NCBI GenBank assembly: GCA_021904315.1
Contig: CM038914.1
Location: forward strand, 20,075,065-20,139,064
Source of the DNA: Sphagnum magellanicum
Lineage: Eukaryota; Streptophyta; Sphagnopsida; Sphagnales; Sphagnaceae
Reading direction: 5' to 3'
Length of the DNA stretch: 64,000 nucleotides
The position numbers were made by a program, and so were the translations under genes. Positions 9,241 to 59,200 of the stretch are shown in pieces. Numbering within the stretch: the stretch's first letter is position 1; every line of letters begins with the position of its first letter. The notes beneath the pieces were generated by a model. The model had not been told where the DNA came from. It did not search any database and saw only the letters and a program-made list of their open reading frames with translations.

Positions 9241-11601
9241 CAATATGTTGAACTACACACTGTCGCAGTATTTGTCTTTAAATCGTTTTGTATGGTCGCT
9301 ATTCTGGAAGTCTGTGTTCATGGTTTTACACTTCTTGTTGTTTGGGGTTGTTAAGGACCGATGATGTTTTGTATGCTACTTTCCTAGAAGCAGACTTAAA
9401 TATGAACCAGTTCTCGTAACTTGCCTTCAGATGTGGATTTCTTATCTTGGGTTTCTGATGTATGGGTCCTGTGTTCTATTGTACGTCTGAACATATGACC
9501 TTCGTCTGTGGGTCTTCTTGCTGCGGCTCTGATTGTTTCTAGAAGCCTTCTGAGGGTTTTTTCTGTTTCTGCTTGAGGGTACTTCTTTTGAAGGATGCAG
9601 AGCAAGTGTAGATAGATCGGGTTGGCCGATGATTATACCAGTATTTGCTACTCTTGATGGTGCACGTTTTTGGCACCAGCTGATTAGACACAATACCACT
9701 AAGATCGATGAGGCCTTATTGTGTTGGTCTTCTTACGGTTTCTGTGTTGATCTGCCTCTTCTTGTCGTACCCCAAAAACTGGGGTGTGAAATAGCTGCCT
9801 ATGAGGAAAAGAATCGTATCGATGTGTGTGCTTCGAGTCCAGTGGGACTGTGAAGAAAGAACTGATCTTCTCTCTGAGGCATTGCTATTCTCGTCTCCTG
9901 TAACTCTCTTCCACACCCTTTTGGTGTTCTTCTATGGGTTCCTTGGCTGGAGCAGTAAAGATTACGAGTGCTGCACAATGCTCCCCGGGCAGCTCTGATC
10001 TCTAAGGAAGAGTGCGCCCTAAGCATGTGCTAGAGAAACCTCCTGCTCCGTGTTACTTGCTTTGTGCTTTCTTTTCCACATCGCAAGTGTCTTTAAGTGC
10101 AGGTATATTTCAGTCCGCAATGAAGAAATCTGCAAGGATTTGTGTAGTAACAGTATATTTGATGATCATTTGTTTTGTGCATTTCTTGATCTGTAAGCTG
10201 TCATCGCATGCACATTTTGTAGTCATTTTTAAGTCCTCGGAAATCTTTGATGTTGTTTCCTTCAGTCTCATCCATATGGAGTCTTCTGTATTTCTGCAGC
10301 TATTCAACACTTGAATCCCTGGCCAAGTCTGCCAAGTTAGTCATGTGAAGATATGAATCGGTGTGCGGATCCATTGCAATCTTGTAGTTGAGAGAAGTGT
10401 TCAGACCGCAGGCCTAGAATTCAAATACCACATGAACTTCTTCTGTAAGAAAATTGGAGAGCCAGTTTCATTATTGCAAACCCCATGAAGATTGAAATTA
10501 TAATCAGGAAATGATATAAACAAAAAAGAGTTCCAAATTACTTGCACCTTGTTTGACTGCAAAGTTCTTAAGGAGATCTCTTTATGATCTCCCATTGATC
10601 ATATTGAAGCCCTGGTGCATCTTCTTCAATAGATTGCAAATTCAGAGGGCGGAGAATAGGTGCGCAAGTCTCAGAATCCCAAGCAACAATTTTGCTAATG
10701 CTTCGTTCCCACAACCCTCTTCGTCTGCTGTTTCATTTTGTGATATCTTCACCGTTTCTGTGTTCCCTTTCTCCTCCCTAGCAAGCGGGAAAAATATATC
10801 AAGTGTTAACAAAAGCAAGAAAACAGTTCATTCCTTGGTGTGAATGAGAAGCCTACCCGAAAAAGAAGTATTTATTCACCTCTCAAATCTTCTGAGCATG
10901 CCTGCGAATCACATCGCAAGTTCGATTTATGTAGGCAAAGAGATGGAAGTTTAAGACTGATATCCACAAAAGCCCTACCCTTGTATCTACTGTGCGGACA
11001 GGTGCGTGGCCAGAGAGATATGAACAGAAACGTTTCTCAACATTAAACTTCAATGAGGAGGAAACCCAGAAACAGGCAAAGGGCGCACTTACATCTTGTT
11101 GTGTATGAATGTGCAAAAGTTCTTTAACATGGAAACATTTCTGTGGTCTGAGGACATACTTAGAACTTCTAAAACTTGACACACATCCTGTTGTGCAAAA
11201 GTTCCTTACTATGGACACTTTTTCGAGGGTCTGAGAACACACTTAGATCCTGTAGTGTGTATTTCTATGCAAAAGTTGCTGTGACCTGCAACAATCAAAG
11301 GTTGAAGTGGGGATAAGAATTACCTAGAAATGCAGTTTACTGTCATTTCTGAAGTATCAGAAGAGCCTTTATTAAAACTCACTACTCCTTTCATGCATTA
11401 GCATGAAATTTATCATTTCTTGTTGTCATTTGCGTATCTGTATATTTTTGATTTGAACATTAGCTTTGCTTCTATGTTTATTTTCATTTATAAATGTTTT
11501 TCAAAATGATGAGGAATTCTCATTGAGGATGTATATCAACTTCATGTCTGTGTTGGTAGGGTAATCATCTGCTATAGTCACAACAGCACACAGTGGTTTA
11601 C
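9241..11601. other. Gene-like block without an assignable protein
   Basis: Composition is near-balanced and several medium frames exist on both strands: + 9629-9853 (74 codons, begins MIIPVFATLDG), + 10553-10843, + 10840-11046, - 10883-11242. None matches a family I know. A GGACAG/GTGCGT donor-like site lies near 10999 on +. A GCTAG/GGAGG acceptor-like site lies near 10780 on -. I take the block as introns and exons of one or two unidentified genes, or their relics. Confidence 0.35.
11091..11280 (+). repeat. Short tandem repeat, two and a half units
   Basis: Segments starting near 11091, 11183 and 11245 share ACATCYTGTTGTG, GCAAAAGTT and GGTCTGAGRACAYACTTAG in the same order. Unit lengths are unequal (about 92 and 62 bp), which suggests duplication followed by deletion. 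Confidence 0.6.
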
Positions 11602-12646: not shown

Positions 12647-12866
12647 ATCAGAACTATGCTACAATACTAATCTAATTTCAATATGAAGGTATGAAGAATG
12701 AAGACGATCACATTGGCGACTGATCTAGAACTTTAAAAATCCTTTTCTACTTGAGAGAGAGATTTGTAGAAATCAAGAGTTCTACTCCATTGCCTATGAG
12801 TGTCATGCCTTGACATGAACGTCTGTGTTGTCAAGTGCCACATTCTGCCGTCTGATTGTGTCAAAG

Positions 12867-12961
12867 ATTTCCTTCACCTTGACTATGATGCAGATCCTTC
12901 GTGTGCAACTATATCGAGTTTGCAGATGAAGAATCTGCATCATAGACTAGCTGGAGGAAAT
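12867..12961 (+). ncRNA. MIRNA-like hairpin A of a tandem cluster
   Basis: The arms 12867-12908 and 12920-12961 pair over about 42 positions around an 11-nt loop. A 13-nt perfect core, CTATGATGCAGAT, lies mid-stem, with mostly single mismatches elsewhere. The 95-nt length, stem quality and short loop fit a plant miRNA precursor. Two arm positions are U-G wobbles if + is transcribed but would be A-C mismatches on -, which favours + transcription. The arm sequence is not one of the conserved plant miRNAs I know (miR156, 159, 160, 166, 167, 172, 390, 482 and others were considered). A tandem or foldback repeat with no small RNA output remains possible. Confidence 0.55.
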
Positions 12962-13054
12962 GTGTCGATCGAGAGCATCCCTCTAACATGTGATCCGTTG
13001 CGACTTGATATCTGAGGACTAAACATTTATGCTTGGCTGCTTTTCGCGCTTCTG

Positions 13055-13156
13055 TATCTTGGCTATTCTGCAGATCTGTCTTTTACAAGAATCTCGAACC
13101 CATCTAGGGACTGCAGTATGTAGGTGAAGAGAAGGATCTGCACCATCGACGAGCTG
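13055..13156 (+). ncRNA. Degenerate hairpin B of the cluster
   Basis: This copy aligns with its neighbours at CTTGGCTATTCTGCAGATC (5' arm) and GATCTGCACCATCGACGAGC (3' arm). The pairing is broken and the loop enlarged. Downstream sequence around GAGATATCTG and CTAACATTTAAGG matches the sequence following hairpin A, which shows it is a unit of the same tandem array. Confidence 0.4.
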
Positions 13157-13258
13157 AACAAAAACTCAGCTTCGCCGTTAACTGCACACGAGATATCTGT
13201 AACTTGAGATGTCGATCTAACTAGGACTCTAACATTTAAGGTCGCTTGAATGTTGGAA

Positions 13259-13357
13259 ATTTCCTTCCATCTTGGCTATGATGCAGATCCTTCGTGTGCA
13301 AGATCTGCATCGAGTCTGCAGATGAAGAATCTGCATCATAGACCAGTTGGAGGAAAT
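13259..13357 (+). ncRNA. MIRNA-like hairpin C of the cluster
   Basis: The arms start ATTTCCTTCC (13259) and end GGAGGAAAT (13357). The 13-nt CTATGATGCAGAT core again pairs perfectly and the inner stem continues through CTTCGTGTGCA with TGCAGATGAAG. Arms of A and C are almost identical over about 26 nt on each side, while the loops and outer stems differ. Outer stem has one bulge. As in A, G-U pairs appear only if + is the transcript. Confidence 0.55.
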
Positions 13358-13448
13358 GAGCTATCGAGCGGTCTCCCTAGCTTACTATATGTCGTGGACA
13401 TCTAATTGACATGCTTTGAGGATTCTAAACGAGCTTTGCTTGTTGCAG

Positions 13449-13539
13449 ATTTCCAAGTCATCTTGGCTATGGTGCAGATCATTCCTTCGCCTGCAACTAT
13501 GAATATGAAGAATGTCACACTAGACAAACTGTAGAAGCG
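13449..13539 (+). ncRNA. Degenerate hairpin D of the cluster
   Basis: The 5' arm keeps ATTTCC, TCTTGGCTATGGTGCAGATC and CCTTCG. The 3' arm keeps ATGAAGAATGTCACACTAGA but the pairing is interrupted. It starts about 190 bp after hairpin C, matching the array period. Probably a decayed unit. Confidence 0.38.
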
Positions 13540-13559
13540 TTGACGAAAGCACTAAAACA

Positions 13560-15200
13560 AATGTGAAACACATTCCTCCTACGTGATTAGCAGGAACGAT
13601 TGCTTCACACCTACACAAACTACTGATCGCACCGCGGCCTTACACAATAGACGCACTAGAAGAAACTCGAGGCAAGTATGATCGATTGTTTCACACAACT
13701 GGCTACTTATAGCAGGAAACTGCGACACTGTAGAGATTGAAGGATGCAAATGAAAAGGTTTGGAACTATGATTTTACGCTCATCCTTCCGTCAGGAAGAT
13801 TCAGCGTATGTTTCCCTGAAACAGACAACAACAGGAAAAGAGGGGGAAAAAAAATCTTCTGCACCCTGACCAGATTAGGAGAATGGAAATCGGATACATT
13901 TTTCCTAGAATATTTCTTGTAATGAGATCCACAGAGATGGAAAAGTACTATCGATTCTGTTCTTATTGGTTACAAGCTGCTAAAAAGCAAGCTCTTAAAG
14001 ATCATGCCCATTATACTATACAAGAGCTACGGAAGCTCGAGTTTCAAGCCCATGCTAGCTGGCTGGAGCCTCTGCCTGAAACATGATGTACAACTTATGT
14101 CGCAAGTTCTGATGTATAGGTATCAATGCACCCACATCGATCCAGTCCAACCACGAGTTCTAGCATTTGCGGTCCAGAAATATTTGTGTTTTGCTGATTA
14201 AATCCCAAAATGGAAAATCGTACTTCCCTCTCCTCCCCCAATATCTTCACCAACTGCGCACTAGGGCGCGGCCGTTGTCGTGGCTCCTGGAGTAGTCGAA
14301 AAAGCAACGTCAGTACACCAGCTGTGTTACCACGACAGTCTTGCCCTTTCCCCCTCCGGTCGGCAAAATTTCCCGCAAGTGTAGGCCAAGTATGTGCACC
14401 TAATTACGACGACGGACTAAGCAAAGTCTTCTTCTTCTTGCCGTTGCCCGGCATTTTCCAAAACCCTGGCAGCTAGCCCCATGTTCAACCACCCAGCTCC
14501 AAACCTGCTGAAAAATCTCTCTGAAAAATCCTCCGGTAAACTTGCTTTGTCTTTTCCAGGCTGCAAAAGGTCCCGGAGAAAATGCCCTATTTCAATGTCG
14601 AAATATGAAGAAAACCCAAAAGTAAGTCTAAATTCACACCCAAAGAAAGAAAAATGAATCAAATATCATCATAATCATCATCATCATCTTCAGATCATCA
14701 AATGCAGCGTCAAGCTTGCCCAAAAAAATTTATTTCGGACTTTCGCCAGGTAACAAGATTTTGTTTGCGCTAGCTAACTAGCAGCTCTTTTTTCTGCAAC
14801 CGCCTGGATTTTAGATCTTACCCATGTGGCGATGCATGTGGCGTGGATGGGCTGTAGCGGCGACTGATTCTGAGATCTGTCAGTGCTGGCCTGTTACTAA
14901 ATTGGACGAGCCGCTTAAATCGGACACAGCTAATTGTTTCTTCAAGCTGCACATCATCATCATCAGCACGCACCCTCATCAGCATCATCATCATCATTTA
15001 CGCTGCTTGATTGATGATGCCGCTTATGATTTAGATAAGATGTGCGAGAGCGCCCGAGCTAGTGGTGCTCGCTTTCGCAAGAAAATCACTGGAGCCCACC
15101 AATAGCTGCTTCGTGCTTCGATCGAATTGCTCACTGGGTGGTGGTGGTAAAAGCTCTTGACCTTTCTTTCTCCCATAAGCAGAGGGGGGATCTGTGAGGT
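13560..15200. other. GC-richer gene-like block, no assigned protein
   Basis: CpG content is higher than in the flanking repeats. Several short frames occur on both strands; none is recognised. On the - strand an ATG at 14454 in a reasonable context opens a 16-codon frame (MPGNGKKKKTLLSPSS, stop at 14404), which could be an upstream ORF or a first coding exon whose donor I cannot place. If transcription runs on -, 14.4-15.2 kb could be a 5' region. If it runs on +, this is downstream sequence of the hairpin transcript. Confidence 0.3.
14665..14999. repeat. Two (ATC)n-type microsatellite clusters
   Basis: Imperfect ATC/CAT triplet runs occur at about 14665-14700 and 14951-14999, with unrelated sequence between them. 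Confidence 0.8.
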
Positions 15201-15639: not shown

Positions 15640-16300
15640 TTGTCTTGTGCTCTCATTTCCATGTTGTTTTTCATATGGTGCTTTCGGCTTTCACTCTTGG
15701 TTTTTTTTGCTCTTGGTGTTCTTTGTTTTTGTTCGTGCTGTTCCTTTTTCTCGTTCTTGGTGTTTTTGTTCTTGGTGTTTTTTGTTTTCACTCCCGATTC
15801 TCACTTTTGATGTTTTTGCTCCTCGCTTTCACTCCTAGTGTTTCTGCTCCTAGTGCTTCTTGTTCTCACTCCTTATGTTTTTCAGTCTTGCTCTTGGTGC
15901 TTTTGCACTTGGTGCTTTTTGTTCTTGTTCTTGGTGCTCCTTGTTCTTGCTTTTAGTGCTTTTGGTTGTTTTTCTTGGTTGCTCCTAGTGTTCTTGAATT
16001 CTCATTCTTGGTGTTCTTATTCTTGGTGTTCTTTGTTCTCATTCCTAATGTTTTCGCTTTCACTCTTGGTGCCCTTAGTTCTTGCTCCTAGTGCTTTTGG
16101 TTTTCACTCTTGGCTTTTGCTCTTGGTGCTCTTACTCCTATTGCTCTTCATTCTTATTCTTAATGCTCTTGCTCTTGGTGTTCCTGGCTCTCGTTCTTGG
16201 TGCTATTGCTTTTGGTGCTCCTTGCTTTCATTTTTGGTGCTCTTGGTTATGGCCCTTCATTTTTTGTTCATGGTTTTTGTTCCTGGTGTTCCTAGTTGTG
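15640..16300 (+). repeat. T-rich degenerate minisatellite (TTGGTG-type unit)
   Basis: Dozens of imperfect copies of a unit close to TCTTGGTGCTTTTGTTC, often spaced in multiples of 3, fill the region. All + frames therefore stay open for long stretches and code for Leu/Phe/Val-rich peptides (frames 15540-15956 and 15838-16626). The periodic low-complexity source, not selection, explains the openness. No signal peptide plus domain structure is visible. Confidence 0.75.
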
Positions 16301-16664
16301 CCATCGCCCCCCTCTTATTTTGTTCTACCATTGCCCCCCCTTCTCTCCTTGTTCTGCCATTGCCCCCCTTTTTTCTTAGTTTTGTTGTCATCATCCTCTT
16401 GGTAACACCTCCTTTTCTTTTGCTCTTGCTACCATTGCCTTCCTTCTCTGTTTTTGTTACCATCACCTTAAACCTTTTGGCAACACCTCCCTCCCTCTTT
16501 CCTGATGCTACTATCACCCTAAACCTTAAAACCATCCTAGTAGCACCATTTTCTATTATTGTTTTATACCCCTTTTTATTTTTGGTTTCCATTTTTCTCC
16601 TTATGTTGCTTTTTGCTTTTGTGTGATGATAAATTTTTTGGGTTATTATTTGGTGCATTGGATT

Positions 16665-17440: not shown

Positions 17441-18332
17441 TGTCGCAACCTTAGCCTTGGGCTCGCGACCAAGGCAAGGGCTTGCAAGGTTGTGGGCCAA
17501 GAGAGAAGCCCAGGAGTGAAGGAAAATGCGAAGGAATGAACCTTCATACTCCCAAATGAGCTTCCACTTTGGGAGTTGGAGTCCTGGTGGACTTTTGAAT
17601 GTTCAGAGAGCAATTGCAAGGGTCAAAACCCAATGGCTTGAAAAGTTCTTTATACCATTGAAAAGCTATTGAAACGTAGATGTCTAAAATGGGCTCGCAT
17701 GACCCATTTGGACATCTAAAACACAACTTATGGCCAAAAGAAAGGTCAGGAGTCAAATTGGTAGTTTGATTCCCAACCATTAAAAGTCAGGAATCGACCT
17801 GATTTCCTTGCGTGTAGGTGGCGTGCGACATACCTTGGAAAGCTCTCAACGAAGGCTATAACTTTGTTTTAGACCTCATTTCAATCGGAGGCCTGCACAC
17901 AAAGTTATGGGGCCCCAAAATCATGGGAGTCCTAATTTTGGCAATTTTGGGACTCCCACTCGGGAGTTCTAGGACAAAAAAAGTCATTTGGATGTGAGTT
18001 TCATGAAGAGGCACAGAGTATATTATAAGGGGGAAAATGGTGGCTTCCCCCAAGTCCGGGCCGTGGTGAGTTTTGTGAGTCCAAGTTGCCCATGGCTCGT
18101 CCTAGCACCAAAAGTGCTCCAACTATGCACTAACCACCTTGTATTGGTTTTGTGCAGGTTCGTGTGAGTAGTCAATGCTTGTCACTCTTCCTAATCCCAT
18201 CCCAAAGCTCCAGCACGCCCTTTTACCCCCTCAAAGTGTTGCCAGCAGGGAACGTGCCTCAACTCCTTGCTCTTCCTTTGTTTTCAGTTTGGACTCACAT
18301 TTGAGTCCATTAATGAGCTTGGGGGTGCGTCA
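17441..18332 (+). mobile_element. Solo LTR, copy 1 of the window's LTR family
   Basis: It begins TGTCGCAACC and ends GGTGCGTCA, 892 bp. Flanks are TTATA (17436-17440) and TTGTA (18333-18337), a 4-of-5 target-site duplication. A TATA-like TATATTATAAG lies near 18018-18029, followed by a CCCCCAAGTCCGG block shared with the other copies. No internal region or second LTR is adjacent, so it is a solo LTR. CpG sites of the family are partly converted to TG/CA. Confidence 0.8.
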
Positions 18333-18900
18333 TTGTAATACCCACATCTAGTTTTGTCGACATTTTTCTGCATTTGTGTGGTGTCTAGGATGTTGGTAGG
18401 TGTGTAGGGGTAGATGGGTAGGTTAGTAGGTATATGAGTGCCACTTGGTAAGTAGATGGGTGGGCAAATAGGTAGGTGGGGATGAGATTAGGTCATTTGA
18501 AATATGTAGGTGAGAACATAGTTGAGAAAAAAAGTAGGTTAGGGGGGTTGGTGGGTGGGAGAGTGGGGTTTTGATGTGGTCATGTGAGTCCAAAAAACAT
18601 CGCAACATTTTTTTTTGGGAAGTCCAAGGGCTAAAAAGGTAAAAAAATAAAATCAAATTGTGCTAACTAACTTGACCAAGGTGGTTATCACAGGGATAGG
18701 AGAGGATAAAAAATTAACACATCCATTGGACTGTCCATCCGTTTGTGGGTGTTGGTTCAGGTTGGCCATATGTGTGTGTTCTTCCTAAGGTTCTTCCTAA
18801 GGTTATAGGGTGGGTACATTCCCTAAAGGAGGGGCCCATGAATAGTTTGGTCTTAGATATTGGAAATGACCCCACCTTTGGATTTGGTATGTTTTTAGTC
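18333..18900. other. Noncoding, G-rich TAGG-type low complexity
   Basis: Repeats of the GTAGGTGGG type occur at 18380-18570. No protein-like frame is seen. Confidence 0.5.
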
Positions 18901-39360: not shown

Positions 39361-42300
39361 ATGGGTTCCTCAAGTCTTGTCATGAAGAATATAAATTTGT
39401 CACCCAATGAGGAGATGGTCCAAATATTTGTAGGCCATGATAATAGCATTAATGTTGATACTCTGTTGGAAGCAAATGGAAAGCTTCATCCTACTGAGAT
39501 TATTCCTATTCCTAGTGATGATTCATATGTATTAAATTTGCACATGACAAATTTGAGAAAGCAAGTAGTTCACTAGAAGCCTCACAATCATAATTCACCA
39601 ATGTGGGTTTTTCTTTTTAAGGTGAACAACAACCAACCAATTGACCTTTTTCAAATCAAATCATGCAGTGCATAGTCTGTCGTAGTGAAGTCATGGGTCT
39701 TAAAGTTTTGGCATTATGCATTGGGTTATGGAAAGGTTTCATTGCTTATCATAAATCAAATGGAATTACAAGCATGAAGAAACATGTCAAAATTGAATAC
39801 AATGTCATACTTAAGAAATTCCTTGACAATGTAACTAATGCAATTGTTGCTCCCCTTGCCTGTGAACCAGCCAAAAAAAGGACACATGTGACACCATTGG
39901 CCATTTTTGAGTTTTTTTCTTATGTTAACCAATTCAAGAAAGATAATGAAACACAAATTGGTTCCTTGGAGGATTTGATGTTTTTTGACGCACTCCCAAG
40001 TCCCAGGTTGAACCCACTTGAGGGTCCAACTATGTTGAGTTGCGGAAAGTTGGGACTTCAGGGGCATTCCCGACTTCCAGCACTAAAAGGGGGTAGAGGG
40101 GCGTGCTAGAAGTCCCGGAATTAAACTAGGAAGATGGATTAGAAGATCAAGCTTGAATCTGCATCCAAGAGGGTTAGTTCACATTCGGGAACACCCTTGG
40201 GTGTTGAGACAAGCCACGGGCACTTTTACATACAAAACTCACCACGGCCCGGACTCGAGGGAAGCCACCACCTAACCCCCATATAGTATACTCTGCAACT
40301 CTCCGCCGAGGCTACATCCAAATGGGTCTTTTTCCCGGGACTCCTAAGTTGAAGTCCTGAAACTGTCCTGGGTTGGAGTCCCGGGACTTTGGATGGTCAT
40401 AGCTCCTCGCCCCGAACTCGGATCGGGACGAGGTCTAAACCAAAGTTGTAGCTCTTGTCGAGAGCTTTCCAACGCCGTGTTGCACTCTTGAGGTGACATC
40501 GGGAAGAGGTCGATTCCCGACTTTTAATGGTCGGGAGTCAAATTGGCAGTTTGACTCCCGACCTTTCTTATGTCCATAACTTGGGCTGAAGATGTCGAAA
40601 TGCCAATGAGATGCCATTTTGGGCATCTACGCTTCAAGAGCTTTCCATTGATATAAAGAACGCATCAAGGAGAGGAGATTTGACCCCTCAAATCGTCTTC
40701 TGAGTTTTCGGGAGTCCCGGAGGACTCCATTTTCCCACTTTTGGGAGTGTGAGTTGCATTCTCACACTTAGCCCCAAAGTGGGGTTGTGACATTCTTTAT
40801 GATGAAAGGCTACTTGCCCATGAAGATTATTGAATCCATTTGGTTCCAAAGATTTTCATATAGGTTATGCCCAAGGTGATTTTCCGTAGCAAAAAGGTTT
40901 GGTGGATGAAATTTTACTTGGATTGGTGGAAAAGACTACGGTTACTTATGTTAGCCAACACTAATAAAATATATATCAACCACATGCACATTTAATTTAT
41001 AAATGTCAAAAAGCGCACATGACCTTTGTGCTATGGTTGTTAACTTTTTGTTTAATATGTGGGAGGACAAACACATGATTACTATTGGGTTAATGTTTGA
41101 GGTGAGTGACATTAGTGGTGCAATTATGGTTCCAAAATTACAACTTCTTGACAAATCTTTCCTTATTCATAAGATCCTTACTTGCATAAAAAATGATGAG
41201 TCAAATTTATAAACATGTGTCAATTATACTTTGATTTGGTTGTTTCATGTACACGTTTGGGTATGTTAGATCCATTTGATGGATGATGCTTTTGGCATGA
41301 CCTATCAAAGGTTTGTGAATATACAACTACATATGAAAAAGTGGCCCATGGCCTAGGCATCCATAATGATAGTTCAAGTTCATATCTAAAAATGTATTTA
41401 CTTGGCCACATAAGTTTAGGAAAGGGAGGCAAACATGGGAAAAAAATTGTGTAAGTTCTGGCTTGAAGCCTAGAAAATTGAACACACATGTCAAGACAAG
41501 GTGAATGTGATTTTCTTATTATTAAGTTTTAATTAACACGAGTTTTAAAATTGTTAGGTTTTTATTATTTCCATTAATGTGGTGTAAATTGCATTTGTTG
41601 TTGATTGTAGGTTTACAAATTGAGTTTCATTATTCTAAGACGCTTTGGCTTTTCGAATTGCCACTGCATTGTGAACTACAAATCAAACTATAACGTTACA
41701 AAGTCACATTCCTTCACCACAAACATGGGTTGTTTGCAAAGTTGTGAAAGTTTTGTCACCCATTGTGAATAGTTATGTTTTGAACCAATGTTAAAGGAAC
41801 TAGTTGCTTGGGGATGCCTTCCATTTTGTCATATTTACATGTCACAACTTTGTGAAGAAATTTTCGACTAGAGGGTCCCTAACAACCAACTTGCTAAAGA
41901 AGAGGCAAATGTTTTTTATTTTGAGTTGGATGAACTTTTTTTTCGTATGAAGCACCATGTGTTGGAGGTCCTTACACCCTTCCTTTCTTTTTTGCATTTT
42001 GTTGATAAGAAAAAAAGGCATAACATGTTTGTATTGATGTTGGATTTCAAATATAAAAATATGCAATTGGTGACCATTAATCTAGGTCATGAAATTGATG
42101 CCACCTTCATTGTTGACCAGGACAATTGTTATTGCCTCTAATGTTGAATGTTTTCAAGTTGTTGATGCCCAATAGGGTTTAAGACCTTAATGAGTCTACC
42201 TCACTTATGGACTATCATGATCTACTTTGGTAGTCTAACACATATGTAATTGTGCATACAAGGACATTGTGGCAAGAGAGTTTGGATCATTACATTGTTA

Positions 42301-51894: not shown

Positions 51895-52810
51895 TGTTGC
51901 AACCCTAACCTTGGGCTCGTGACCAAGGCAAGGGTTGGCAAAGGTGTGAGCCAAGAGTGAAACACGAGAGTCACATTTCATGCTCCCGAGAATGTAGGAA
52001 AATGTGAGGGAATGAACCCCCACACTTCCAAGTGAGCTCCCACTTTGGAAGTTGAAGTCCTGATGGACTCCTGAATCTTCAAAAGGTGATTGCAAGGGTC
52101 AAAACTCATTGGACTAAAAAGTTCTTTATATCATTAAAAATTTCTTGGAACGTAGATGTCGAAAATGGGTTTGCATGACCCATTTGGGTACTTAAAACAT
52201 AAGTTATGGCCAAAAGAAGGGCGAGGAGTCAAATTGGCAATTTGACTACCGACCACTAAAAGTTGAGAATCGCCTTAATTTCCTTACGTGCGGGTGGCAT
52301 GCCACATACTGTTGGAAAGATCTTGATAAGGGCTACAACTTTGCTTCAATCTTTGCTTCAATAGGAGGTTTGCACACAAAATTATGGGCCCCAAAGTCGT
52401 GGGAGTCCCAATTTCAGGAATTTCAAGACTCCAACTTGGGAGTCCCAAGACAAAATGACATTTGGGTGTTGGCCCCATGGCCAGGCACAAAAAATGTTAT
52501 AATGGGGAAGGTGATGGCTTCCCCCAAGTCCGGGTCATGATGAATTTTGTGAGTACGTGTTTGCCCGTGGCTCATCCATGCACCAAAAGTGCTCCAACTA
52601 CGCACTAACCAACTTGTTGTTTGGTTTGTGCAGGTTCGTGCGAGTAATTGAATTGTTTGTCACTTTTCCTAGTCCCCATCATGGAGCTCCAACACACCCT
52701 TCTACCCCAAAAGTGTTGCGAACCAAGGAGCGTGCCCAAATTCCTTATCCTTCCGATGTTTTCACCTTAGACTCACATTTTGAGTCTATCAAGGAGCATG
52801 GGAGTGCATA
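51895..52810 (+). mobile_element. Solo LTR, copy 2, inside the gypsy element
   Basis: Begins TGTTGCAACCCTAACC and ends near GGGAGTGCATAA, where the family's GTGCGTCA end is mutated. Flank GAAAC on the left resembles AAAAC on the right (52812-52816). It is in the opposite orientation to its host element. Confidence 0.75.
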
Positions 52811-55306
52811 AAAAACGTCCAAGCTTAACATGCATATCCTTTATTATTTTTTGCCATTCATTTGGTTTTGGCATGGTAAATCCCTTGAAAATCCAAGCTT
52901 CCATGTGCTAATAATAATTAAAAGGATGCAATTTTTAACTATGTCTAATTCCTTTGTTGCACATTCATCAGACAACCTTCCCCCATTCAAAACAATGAGG
53001 CAATTAACATCTTGCCAGATGTCTAAATTACACTCATTATCCCAATTGTCATCATCTTCTACTTCTAAAGATTCTCCACCATCATCCCCAATTTCCACCA
53101 TCTTTTGAACAACCATAATTAATTTTAAATGCAAATTAACATTAATTAGACATGTCATTTGTTTGGAAGCCACATGCAACCTTTTTCTTTTATTGTTATG
53201 TGCTTAAAAGGTCTTAGTGGCCCCTAGCACTCCACCATTAGCTTGTCCTACATCTACCTCCACCTCCGCATCTTGTTCCTCTAATTCCACCATGAAGATT
53301 CGTGGAATTTCAAGTCTAGGAGTATTATTTCATATGTTTGAAACATTTCCTCCAAATCCAAGTATGAATCCCCGTTATTTTAAACATCTTCATGTCTTGA
53401 ATTTCATTTACAAAATCTTCATTATCAGCTACAAGACTAACAGGGTTACGACTAAGTGCATCTACATCACCATGCTTTGGTCTTATTTTATGTATGATCT
53501 TGAAATCAAAATCTCGCAACATGTCAATCCACATGCCCTATCTTCCATAAAGGGCTTATGGTTAGTCCTTAATGTGAAGTGGTTTATGTGCAGATACTGT
53601 CTAAAATGCATAACATTCCCCTTCCATGGGATGGAAATGGCTATGTATTGATGAAAACCCTTTATTAACATAGGCAATTACATATTTTTGTTGCCCACCT
53701 TTTTGCAACAGAATTGCTCCCACCCCCCAAGTTGATTAATCTACATCAAATACAAAAGCTTTGTTAAAATTTGGTCCATACAAGATTGGTGCTTCCACTA
53801 ACACCTTTTTCAATGTTTCAAAGGCACCTTGGCAAATGGGAACCCACCTAAAATCTACAACCTTCCTTGTTAGTTCAAACAAGGGAGGGCAAAAACATGG
53901 TTAGGTGTTTCAAAAGTGGCATTTAAAAGTCCATAATCTAACACTAATAAATTTTTTGCAGTTTTAACAATTATCAAACCATAAATCCTATAATTATCCC
54001 CTATGCTTTTAATCATAAATATTAATAAACCAACCTATGAATATCCTTAAACATGTGATTGATAAAAAACATCCATGAAAAAAATTAAAAAATTAAATTT
54101 GAAATGAACTTTCAAAGATAAAATTTATAACAATCATGTCATTTTTTTAAAAAATTAATTATAAATATTATTATTATGAAATTTTCAATGCACTTCACAA
54201 ATAAATTCTTCATTTGATGATTTTTTAAAAATTATTAATTTGACACTACTTTGACATATTTTTTGAATCCACATTTTTCATTTTCTCTATGTGATAGATG
54301 TAGTGCTATCATTTTAAAAATCCATTATGAGTCCATAATCTTTTTAGAATTCATCCAAAAAAATTATGATGATTTTCATTAAAGTTTATGACAACATGAA
54401 TAATTAAAAATTGATAATGTTAATTTTGAATATGGATGTAAGTTTTACATTTATATGTAATCCAGAATAATTACAAGTGTCACAATCGAAATAATCCCCT
54501 TATTCATGTTTTCACCCATGAATAACAATTTTTACATACCCCTTAATGTAATTTCGGTAGTAACCAATCAACCCAAAAAATGCACGAACATTTGTGACTG
54601 ACATAAATACAAGAAACTCTAGCACTACCCTTATTTTTAAAGGATTGAACATAATTCCTTTCTAACTTAATTACATGTCCTAAAAAACTTATGTGTTTAA
54701 CTCCAAAAACAGATTTGCTAGGATTGAGTTTTAAATTTACTTCCTTAATCTTGTTAACACCAAGTGTAGGTGTTTCAAGTGTTCAAACTAAAGGGCACTA
54801 TGTACATTTAAGTTAGATCCACAAAGACCTTTAAAATGTATTGCACCCACTTTTGAAAGACTTCTATCATTGTTCAACTCAAAGTGCTTGTGGCATTCTT
54901 CAAACCAAATGGCATCACCATCCAATCAAAAAGCCTTGATTTCATTATGATTACAATCTTTTTAATGTCTTGTGGCACTATCCTTATTTTGGTTTTCATA
55001 GATTGAATTGTCTCAAGTAAACTAATTATTCCTATGGAGAACAATTATGGCTTTGTAACAAAGATGATATCTTCTTCTTCATCTATGATGCCATTCTAAT
55101 AATTGTTACACAATAACATTTTTGGACTTCTTATTTCACCTCCCAAATGTTTAGTAACTATAATTGTTCTGACTGTCCCATTCCCTTGTATGGTTATAGT
55201 ATTACTTCCCCAATCATGTGCCACTTTAGCATCCCTCAACCATGGTCTCCCCAACAACATGGAATAATTAGAATCTACCACATTATTCTAAAACACAGTA
55301 AATGTA

Positions 55307-56282
55307 TGACGCACTCCCAACTCCTTAAAGGACCCAAATGTGGGTCCAAATGGAACACAGCGGAAGAGGGAGGAGTCGGGGCACGCTCCCTAACTCACAA
55401 CATTTTGAGGGGTAGAAGGGCGTGTTAGAGCTCCGGGATGGGACTAGGGAGAATTGACAAGCTTCACTCATTCACACAGGCTTACACACAACCCACACGA
55501 AGTGGTTAGTGCATAGTTGGAGCACCCTTGGTATTAGGACAAACCATGAGCAACACGGACACACAAGACTCACCACGGCCCGGACTTGGGGGAAGCCACC
55601 ACCTTCCCCCTTATAGTATACTCTGTGGCTAGCCACGGAGCCTACATCCAAATGGTTTTTCTCTCCCGGGATTCCCGAGTGGGAATCCCGAAATCCCGCC
55701 AACTGGGACTCCCATGATTTTGGAGCCCCATAACTTTGCGATCAAACCTCCGATTGAGGTGCGGTCTAAAGAAAAGTTGTAGCTCTCGTCGAAAGCTTTC
55801 CAACGGTATGTCGCACGTCGTCTGCAAACAAATAAATCGGGTCGATTCCCGACTTTTTCTGGTCGGGAGTCAAATTTGCAGTTTGACTTCCGGCCCTTCT
55901 TTTGGCCATAACTTGTGTTTCAGATGTCTGAATGAGCAATGCGAGCCCATTTTAGACATTTAGGTTTTAAGAGCTTTCCAATGATATAAAAAACGCCACA
56001 AGCCATTGAGTTTTGACTCCTCAAATCGCTCTTTGAAGTTTTGGAAGTCCATCGGGACTCCATCTCCCAAAGTGGGAGTTGTCTTGGGAGTGTGAGTGTT
56101 CACTCCTTCACACTCCCTCACACTTTCTTACACTCCCGGGAGTATGTGATGTGACTCCCTGGCTTCCTCTTGGCCCGCACCCTTGCAATGCCTTTGACTT
56201 GACTCCTGGACTTCCTTCCTCTTGGCCCGCCACCTTGCAACCCCTTTGCCTTGGTCGTGAGCCCAAAGCTAGGGTTGCAACA
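55307..56282 (-). mobile_element. Solo LTR, copy 4, inside the gypsy protease
   Basis: On - it runs from TGTTGCAACCCTAGC (56282) to GGGAGTGCGTCA (55307), 976 bp. It is flanked by a perfect 5-bp target-site duplication ATGTA (55302-55306 and 56283-56287). TATAGTATACTCTG lies at 55613-55626 on +. It is CpG-rich compared with copy 1 and the chromovirus LTR. It divides the host protease between KDLKIYI and MLLGRPWL. Confidence 0.88.
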
Positions 56283-59200
56283 ATGTAATTATGTAAAGAA
56301 TGCCATGAACATATATATATCTTCAGATCTTTGATCAACCCCATTGGTTTTGTGGTTGTTTGATCTACCATCCTCAAATTATATGGTGTAGGTTTAGGCT
56401 TTGGAAATTGCATCCTCAATCTCAACTATTCTATGATAACATTATTCCAAAACCTCCATCCAGCAACACATCCTTTATTATATTTTTCCCAATCTATATT
56501 TGGATAATTGTCATATGATTATCTATTGCTACAACAATTGTCCCTACTTTTAATACTAAAGAACCAACTTATTTATCTATGGTTGCTTTACTTACATTCT
56601 AAATTTTTTATAGTTTTAGGTTTTGCCAAAGATATATCTTTAGTTCAAGAGCTATTTGAAGTAATTGTCCTAAGTTCAAAGGATAACTTGTTTCTAGCAT
56701 TTGCTTACCAATGTCTAAAAAAATCTCTTCTACTATGATCAGGTTTTCTTGTGAATTCACTACTTCCTAAAATTTCTATGTGTCCACAAAAATAATATAT
56801 TTGGCATACTTGGCCAGGTTGTGTTCCATCCCTCCATGGATGTGGATGGCCCTTTTATTTGGGTTTATGTTTTTTGAATCTATTGAATTATTTCCACCAT
56901 TGACTATTTCAATTGCTCTTCTTTCTCCCAGTCAACAACAATATTTTCTTTCCTTGGTTCTCTATCCTTGAATACTTGTTCTTCAATTACATTATGTCTT
57001 ATGATGACATTAACATCCACCACATTCACATTCGTGATGATTGTTTGTGTTTCAACAACATGTTGAACCTCTACTATTGTCATAGATTTCCCATGAAACA
57101 TTTTTTGCATCTCAGCAATCTTTGGACAATTTGTCATTTTATGTCCATTCAAACCACAGATGTGACATGCATATGAAGATGTCTTCTATGTTTTTTAACT
57201 TGGTTGTGCTACCTCTATGGTTGCCACCATGGTTTGCTATTTTTTCTTTCTACATGTCTCCACATTGTGATTTGCCATCCCACAATTTGTGCAATGTTTG
57301 TCATTATTCCTTGTATTACTTTGTGTTTTTGCTAGTATTGCCTATTTGATACTATGTGGTATTGATAGTGCACTCCTTACTTTTGTAATAGTCATATTTT
57401 TTTCAACAACATTGCTGCTTCCTTATGTTGTAGTGTTGACCGCTTCATCCCTACAATTGCAATTTTGAGGTATGATTACAAACCCGTTCTAAACATAATA
57501 ATTTAAAAAAATTATTTGGTTAGTACTTGTAAACCATGAACCAACTTCTAAATCCGCTTATAGTAAACCTCCACCCTCTAAGTTTCCTCCTACTTCATGT
57601 TCTTTAGCTCCATGTATAATTACTTGTCATTATGAGTCTTTTGATGACGTTTGCAAAATGCTTGTGTAAGTTCTGAAAAAGTATAATCAGGAAATTTTAA
57701 CATGTAATTATGGCACCAACCCAATGTCATGTCTTTTAGTGTATAGCTAAATGCATTGATGATATACTCTTCAAAAGTTTCTACATTTACTTTTACTACA
57801 GAATTGAACACTTTAACATGAACATGTAGATTAACATCTTTTTTGAAATCAAAATACTTAAAAGTTGCCTTGTTTGGCTTAACATAATGGCCATCTATGT
57901 GATCATGAAGAATTGGTGTAGTTACAGGAGATGGTTCTTAGTATCCTCTTCTTGGATTCATAGCATCTACACTTTTGTACCTTTCAACAGCCATTGAACT
58001 CATCAATGGTTGATTTACAGTCCTATTCACATGAATAATCGTTATTAGATTAGTAAACACCATTTGAGGTGTGCGGGCAACTCGAGTAGTAGGTGTTGGA
58101 AGTACCAAACTTTGACTCAAATTCCTTACTATCGAAACTCCACTTTATCCACTACCCAATTTTGCTACAAATCCAATTGGTACTCCCCTTTTGACAACAT
58201 CTATGTTGGGCACAACAACCATTACCACTTCTATGGTTGTTATACTTGCATCAAGTGATTGAATAACTCCTACTCCAACATGTTGTTTTCAGGTTTCAAA
58301 AACTACCGATTCTAACACTATTGGTGGAGTTGTGTTGATGCGAGATCAACGATGTTCTAATATGTGGTTACCCATTAGTATCCATTGTGGTGCAGTATGT
58401 GGATGTGAATACCTTTTTGGTTTTCTACTCCTGGTCTGAATAAATGGACGAATCTATCAACTCTGTGGTCCCAATTGGCTTCCCAATTCCATGCCTCTAA
58501 ATCTATTATGGACTACAAGAATTTTTAATTTTTGTTATTATGGTTGATCCATTAATGTTCATGCCACATTATGTAACTCCACAAGCTTAGTAATATTTGT
58601 TCTAATGTGAAAAAACATAGAAGGACAATCCATGATTGCATGTCCTTCTTCCTCACAGAATGCACAGACCCTTGAAAGTAACTTGATCATCTCTGAATCC
58701 ACATATTCATGATGTCATGTTTTGCCTATGTACCTTGTTTGATCCAACTTTGGATTCCCTTGATGTGACCATGACTACAATATTTCATCCAACGCATTCA
58801 CATGTGCTTCTAAATACTCAAATGATCTTGGGTATTTTCCTTAATCTCCCCAAACACATCAACATTGGTGTTTTCATCCACCTCCTAGTGTTCCATTGGT
58901 TCATAGTAATCTAGAGATGCAAATTGATACACAAACCTAGGTTGTATACCTCATGTAACATCCCTCCCTCAACTAGTCACCGACTTTAAACTTGAAATTT
59001 CCTGTGGTTGATCAAGTACTATAGAAATCCCTACTTTGTCTTGATCTCTACAACTCTGAACCACAGATTGCGGTTGAAAAGTATACTACATATGTTCATT
59101 TGGATGAATAGTTGACTACATCTTTCTCCATGGATATCATCATATGGATCTATGCCTTTTTTGAAGACCCCCAATCCATACATCTCGTTGTACCACTTCT

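Follow-up and report, generated by a model that had tools for sequence, protein, structure and literature searches.

A tandem array of hairpins in Sphagnum magellanicum

We analysed a 64,000-nt stretch of the Sphagnum magellanicum genome (C8:20075065-20139064; the window), which carries a tandem array of four related units, A to D, of about 195 bp each. We consider it likely that the array is a tandem microRNA (miRNA) locus, that it belongs to a single MIRNA family with ten or more loci, and that the predicted miRNA would act on mRNAs for basic helix-loop-helix (bHLH) proteins. A reading of the sequence alone (the original prediction) had proposed the four-unit array, a miRNA-precursor-like geometry for A and C, and a perfect 13-nt core. 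All three hold. The unit-to-unit spacings are 180, 213 and 191 bp, and the core, identified by reading of the sequence, is CTATGATGCAGAT. The arms are 42 nt long and 83% complementary in A and 40 nt long and 80% complementary in C, with 11 and 16 nt between them. Folded on the plus strand, A and C reach minimum free energies (MFE) of -50.9 and -53.8 kcal/mol, which none of 200 shuffles equals; the z-scores are -9.35 for A and -7.64 for C on this strand, and -8.61 and -8.18 on the minus strand. A second set of folds gave MFE values of -47.0 (minus) and -50.3 (plus) for A, and -51.5 (minus) and -53.8 (plus) for C.

The original prediction had also placed an inverted repeat in each of the four units. 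This stands for A and C; B and D have similar arm sequence, yet on the plus strand they fold no better than shuffles (z = -0.39 and +0.42), which leaves A and C as the only good hairpins of the array. When the four are aligned, conservation falls mainly into two islands, which are the two arms. No further copy of the unit was found elsewhere within the 64 kb.

Our candidate for the mature miRNA is UCUAUGAUGCAGAUUCUUCAU, the sequence that both A and C carry in the 5' arm of the minus strand (Table 1); small RNAs of 20-22 nt would be expected to start in this arm near UCUAUGAUGC or UAUGAUGCAG. In folds of A and C, 15-17 nt separate the base of the stem from the start of the candidate, which matches the distance expected of base-to-loop cutting by DICER-LIKE1.

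Table 1. Units, hairpins and candidate miRNAs of the array (window positions).
Feature	Position	Strand	Basis
Hairpin A, intact miRNA-precursor-like foldback	12867..12961	(-), inferred, evidence mixed	Fold z, alignment duplex
Candidate mature miRNA in A, 5'-UCUAUGAUGCAGAUUCUUCAU-3'	12926..12946, ends approximate	(-)	3'-arm 21-mer overlap, target pairing, conservation
Unit B, decayed copy, weak hairpin, arms still recognisable	13048..13166, ends approximate	(-)	Fold z, four-unit alignment
Hairpin C, intact	13259..13357	(-), inferred, evidence mixed	Fold z, alignment duplex
Candidate mature miRNA in C, identical 21 nt to A	13322..13342	(-)	21-mer search, target pairing
Unit D, decayed copy, one arm preserved, second arm degraded	13452..13540, ends approximate	(-)	Fold z, four-unit alignment

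Related hairpins elsewhere in the genome

Genome searches covered an assembly of 438,994,042 bases in 31 contigs, a size that makes the gymnosperm setting assumed in the original prediction unlikely. For one light-harvesting protein encoded in the genome, the top PDB match is 9vfj_2 (620 aa, matched in two stretches), followed by 8htu and 7xqp, which are Physcomitrium patens entries. Copy counts come from DNA and pattern searches and are lower bounds for repeats. With B and D excluded, we found 16 good or fair related hairpins at 10 loci, comprising six cluster-type sites and four loci with a single diverged hairpin. Besides the window array on C8, DNA searches located cluster-type sites at 11.93 Mb on C13, 19.40 Mb on C5, 4.80 Mb on C14, and 12.71 and 12.68 Mb on C3. 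Four of the six (C8, C13, C5 and C14) hold at least two hairpins about 200-400 bp apart; the two C3 sites have one good hairpin each, with a weak additional match (E = 0.36) at one of them. Read on the plus strand, 10 of the 12 cluster-type hairpins have z-scores of -6.6 or lower, the other two being C14_4 (-3.70) and C5_2 (-1.74). The diverged hairpins were found with the 3'-arm 21-mer on C2, C13 (18.11 Mb), C14 (11.03 Mb) and C18, one in each 401 bases retrieved, and the four do not differ from one another in the candidate miRNA region.

The criteria of Axtell and Meyers from 2018 are said to ask for a foldback shorter than 300 nt, a miRNA/miRNA* duplex with at most five mismatched positions, and precise reads of 20-24 nt on each arm, with 2-nt 3' overhangs. 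In individual folds of the minus reading, 1-5 of the 21 positions of the miRNA region are unpaired in each of the 16 hairpins of about 100-120 nt, a count that leaves out asymmetric bulges. Units B (7/21 unpaired) and D (11/21) exceed the duplex limit of five mismatched positions.

Conservation is centred on the arms. Measured as mean pairwise identity in the best 21-nt window, the candidate arm scores above the other arm across all 16 hairpins (0.913 versus 0.842), among the 12 cluster-type hairpins (0.911 versus 0.892) and among the four diverged ones (1.0 versus 0.929). As is usual for plant MIRNA genes, the paralogues keep their arms better than the loop and flanks, and similarity between loci is nearly limited to the hairpins. 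The exception is C13 and C14, which have about 330 nt in common across neighbouring hairpins as well as a 120-nt patch; shorter patches of 36-54 nt are common to C13 and C14 and to C5 and C3.

The patch of about 120 nt (79% conserved) lies beside the C13 and C14 arrays (L029:2648-2764 and L031:5543-5662), on their upstream side if the proposed strand holds. It could contain a promoter or be a first exon, or it could simply reflect segmental duplication.

In a separate collection of genome contigs the 5'-arm pattern had no match; in viral contigs it had five matches of 18 nt.

Match of the conserved arm to bHLH helix-2 codons

Searched with up to three mismatches, the plus-strand 5'-arm 21-mer matched 23 sites in the genome, against 3 for a reversed control. 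Seventeen of these lie in the clusters and six outside, of which one is a bHLH exon on C4 and the other five are, by eye, neither a family hairpin nor in a bHLH frame. The plus-strand 3'-arm 21-mer, which overlaps the candidate miRNA, matched 39 sites against 2 for its reversed pattern. With two mismatches or fewer there were 21 matches: 12 in cluster-type sites, four in the diverged hairpins, four in bHLH genes (on C4, C11, C16 and C19) and one unexplained (C11:9757704). The remaining 18, with three mismatches, divide into eight in cluster-type sites and ten elsewhere.

At C15:14880405 (L083), a sequence related to the miRNA arm, with three mismatches, reads MKNLHQKL; it folds poorly and is perhaps a decayed copy.

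A miRNA is necessarily antisense to its target. A protein search yielded six bHLH genes, the query included, and the HLH domain (PF00010) was recognized in all six once two exons had been joined by eye; Pfam found no domain in a single bHLH exon alone. In every one of the six, the antisense match sits on the helix-2 codons VK(N/D)L(H/Q)H, which read VKNLHH or VKDLQH. The four VKNLHH genes share an identical AAG AAT CTG CAT CAT (5/5 site codons), whereas among 12 other conserved codons 2 are invariant in these paralogues and 10 vary (P = 0.0034, post hoc: the site was fixed beforehand from the match, and the test itself was conceived after the codons had been seen).

Pairing was scored with a home-made Allen-type penalty, in which a mismatch costs 1 and a G-U pair 0.5, with twice the weight at positions 2-13. 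For UCUAUGAUGCAGAUUCUUCAU the penalties are 3.0 on C4, 3.0 on C11a, 2.5 on C19, 2.5 on C16, 5.5 on C11b and 5.5 on C15, so predicted pairing is acceptable for four of the six genes in this register. For UAUGAUGCAGAUUCUUCAUCU, which lies two bases further on, the corresponding values are 4.5, 5.5, 2.5, 2.5, 3.5 and 3.5. Because no one register suits all six genes, the exact 21-mer proposed here is provisional. We regard the bHLH group as a well-supported candidate target on the basis of these sequence matches, with cleavage as a prediction.

Strand and alternative explanations

The evidence on strand is mixed, and we lean towards transcription of the window gene from the minus strand, chiefly because of the relatives of the array and of the pairing with the predicted targets. 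Compared column by column across the 16-row alignment, the minus strand leaves 9 of 288 duplex cells unpaired and the plus strand 29 of 288; the 12 cluster-type hairpins account for 8 versus 18 of 216 and the diverged ones for 1 versus 11 of 72, and hairpin A itself has 0 of 18 cells unpaired on the minus strand and 1 of 18 on the plus. Each of the four diverged hairpins folds better by 11 to 21 kcal/mol on the strand of the candidate miRNA, and in their individual folds the miRNA region has 5 of 84 positions unpaired in the minus reading versus 15 of 84 in the plus.

Several results weigh against a bHLH-directed MIRNA locus on the minus strand. Of the 12 cluster-type hairpins, 8, with A and C among their number, have a better whole-hairpin MFE on the plus strand. 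In individual folds of these 12, the miRNA region has 38 of 252 positions unpaired on the minus strand versus 34 on the plus; four hairpins are better on the minus strand, five on the plus, and three are ties. Covariation is modest: both sides change at 4 of 38 pairs in the plus-strand alignment of 12, a number that 97 of 500 shuffles reach, and RNAalifold counts such changes at 3 of 25 pairs (12 rows) and 5 of 27 pairs (16 rows). In the same alignment of 12, however, seven cells carry changes on both sides (1 of 500 shuffles) and the covariation score is 0.081 (6 of 500). The ten off-cluster 3'-arm matches with three mismatches, one of which was inspected, exceed the control count of 2. The codon test is small and post hoc, and in the pair C4/C11a it is powerless (P = 0.46). 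Finally, the register shift that brings the two bHLH members at 5.5 down to 3.5 raises C4 and C11a to 4.5 and 5.5.

These fold comparisons are what favours a MIRNA gene on the plus strand of the window, with a 5'-arm miRNA near UUGGCUAUGAUGCAGAUCCUU. That arm is likewise antisense to the bHLH codons, since the stem is nearly palindromic. However, its penalties are 5.0 on C4 and 5.5 on C11a, where positions 4 and 10 are mismatched, and the remaining four bHLH genes score at least 8.5; in its C13/C14 variant the arm scores 4 on C4 and 4.5 on C11a. Given also the poorer column-by-column pairing of the plus duplex and the opposite preference of the diverged hairpins, we hold a plus-strand gene to be possible but doubtful. 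A decaying inverted-repeat locus for small interfering RNAs, or a foldback left behind from bHLH exon fragments, would account for the decay of units B and D and for an arm that reads like a bHLH exon; we judge either to be improbable. Least credible of all is a family of foldback transposons (miniature inverted-repeat transposable elements, MITEs) with no regulatory role, a dispersal that the original prediction had itself raised. The presence of inverted repeats, each of about 42 bp, at all ten loci fits such a family, but the similarity between loci that is nearly confined to the hairpin, together with flanks lacking a target-site duplication, makes it unlikely: over the 16 hairpins the mean longest common word is 4.75 for a hairpin's own flanks and 4.46 for cross-paired flanks. 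The few copies found (ten loci, a lower bound), the two or more good tandem hairpins at four of the six cluster-type sites and the match to a single stretch of bHLH codons also argue against it.

Comparison with known miRNAs

The candidate of the array resembles the Marchantia FRH1 miRNA, which acts on RSL1, in being a bryophyte miRNA directed at a bHLH gene. The bHLH group described here is presumably unlike RSL class I, to judge from the RSL motif.

In an Rfam scan that set aside the four diverged hairpins, no family reached its gathering score and only weak miRNA models were matched. These were mir-4679 (best E = 0.0039, at most 35.1 bits versus a gathering score of 88) and MIR7996 (best E = 0.069, 25.5 versus 119 bits); mir-4679 matches both strands alike because any long stem would. 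No related paper was found for the hairpin or core sequences in searchable text, a search that did not extend to supplementary files. The arm is accordingly as unfamiliar as the original prediction had described it. Three papers contain a match of 12-13 nt: in PMC11773456 a 12-mer falls inside a miR159 precursor, and the two others are unrelated to judge by their titles.

Two moss miRNAs invite comparison by their reported targets alone. In Physcomitrium patens, several bHLH mRNAs are reportedly under the control of miR902 (PMC3565333), miR902-5p is said to target PpbHLH (PMC4957126), and miR1026 is reported to act on PpbHLH and to lower its level also through DNA methylation after abscisic acid (PMC3565333). 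The candidate of the array would be like miR902 as a moss miRNA with several bHLH mRNAs, and like miR1026 as a miRNA on a moss bHLH gene. In view of these two, the lineage-specific miRNA gene suggested in the original prediction is just one possible reading. On these reports we think the chances slightly favour the array belonging to the known miR902 (or miR1026) family, which would imply the same mechanism and is compatible with a MIRNA locus directed at bHLH mRNAs. The passages available from PMC3565333, PMC4957126, PMC9280363, PMC9138629, PMC1838911, PMC5688659 and PMC5397531 give no mature sequence for miR902 or miR1026. Neither this, nor the lack of an Rfam model at gathering score, nor the lack of a paper with the core sequences settles homology either way.

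Other features of the window

Two small nucleolar RNAs of different classes, both above their gathering scores, lie close together on the plus strand: SNORD24 (C/D) at 9624-9715 and snoR134 (H/ACA) at 9971-10110. Imperfect tandem repeats of CTTGGTGCTCTTG-like units occupy 15687-16376 and contain in-frame Leu-rich open reading frames of up to 262 aa. Four copies of a dispersed repeat, the longest about 0.9 kb, occur in both orientations with 67-79% identity (17441-18333, 40163-40735, 51895-52807 and 55306-56194). Fragments resembling a Gypsy-type retroelement (reverse transcriptase-like and zinc-knuckle-like, by eye from translations) lie at about 53300-57200 on the minus strand.

Proposed mechanism and implications

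We propose that hairpins A and C would form in a transcript that comes more likely from the minus strand of the window. Cutting by a DICER-LIKE1-type enzyme, about 15-17 nt up from the base of the stem, would free a miRNA from the 5' arm with a sequence close to UCUAUGAUGCAGAUUCUUCAU. In AGO1, this miRNA would direct cleavage of the mRNAs of the six bHLH genes at their VK(N/D)L(H/Q)H codons in helix 2. The family may have originated by inverted duplication of a bHLH exon, because the other arm resembles the target codons in sense, and tandem and segmental duplication may then have multiplied it while individual units (B and D) decayed.

A more specific history can be offered tentatively, although we think it unlikely as a whole: the family would be unrelated to miR902 and miR1026, would derive from inverted duplication of a bHLH helix-2 exon, and would have split into the cluster and diverged types, with the cluster stem palindromic enough that the 5' arm of either strand would yield a miRNA directed at these bHLH codons. 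The existence of VKNLHH and VKDLQH subgroups among the bHLH genes suggests that miRNA variants and their targets may have co-evolved.

With these relatives and targets, a bare hairpin becomes a predicted and testable regulatory circuit, with ten precursor loci and six predicted bHLH targets in one genome. If its sequence is that of miR902, the circuit would be old within mosses; if not, miRNA control of moss bHLH genes would have evolved more than once.
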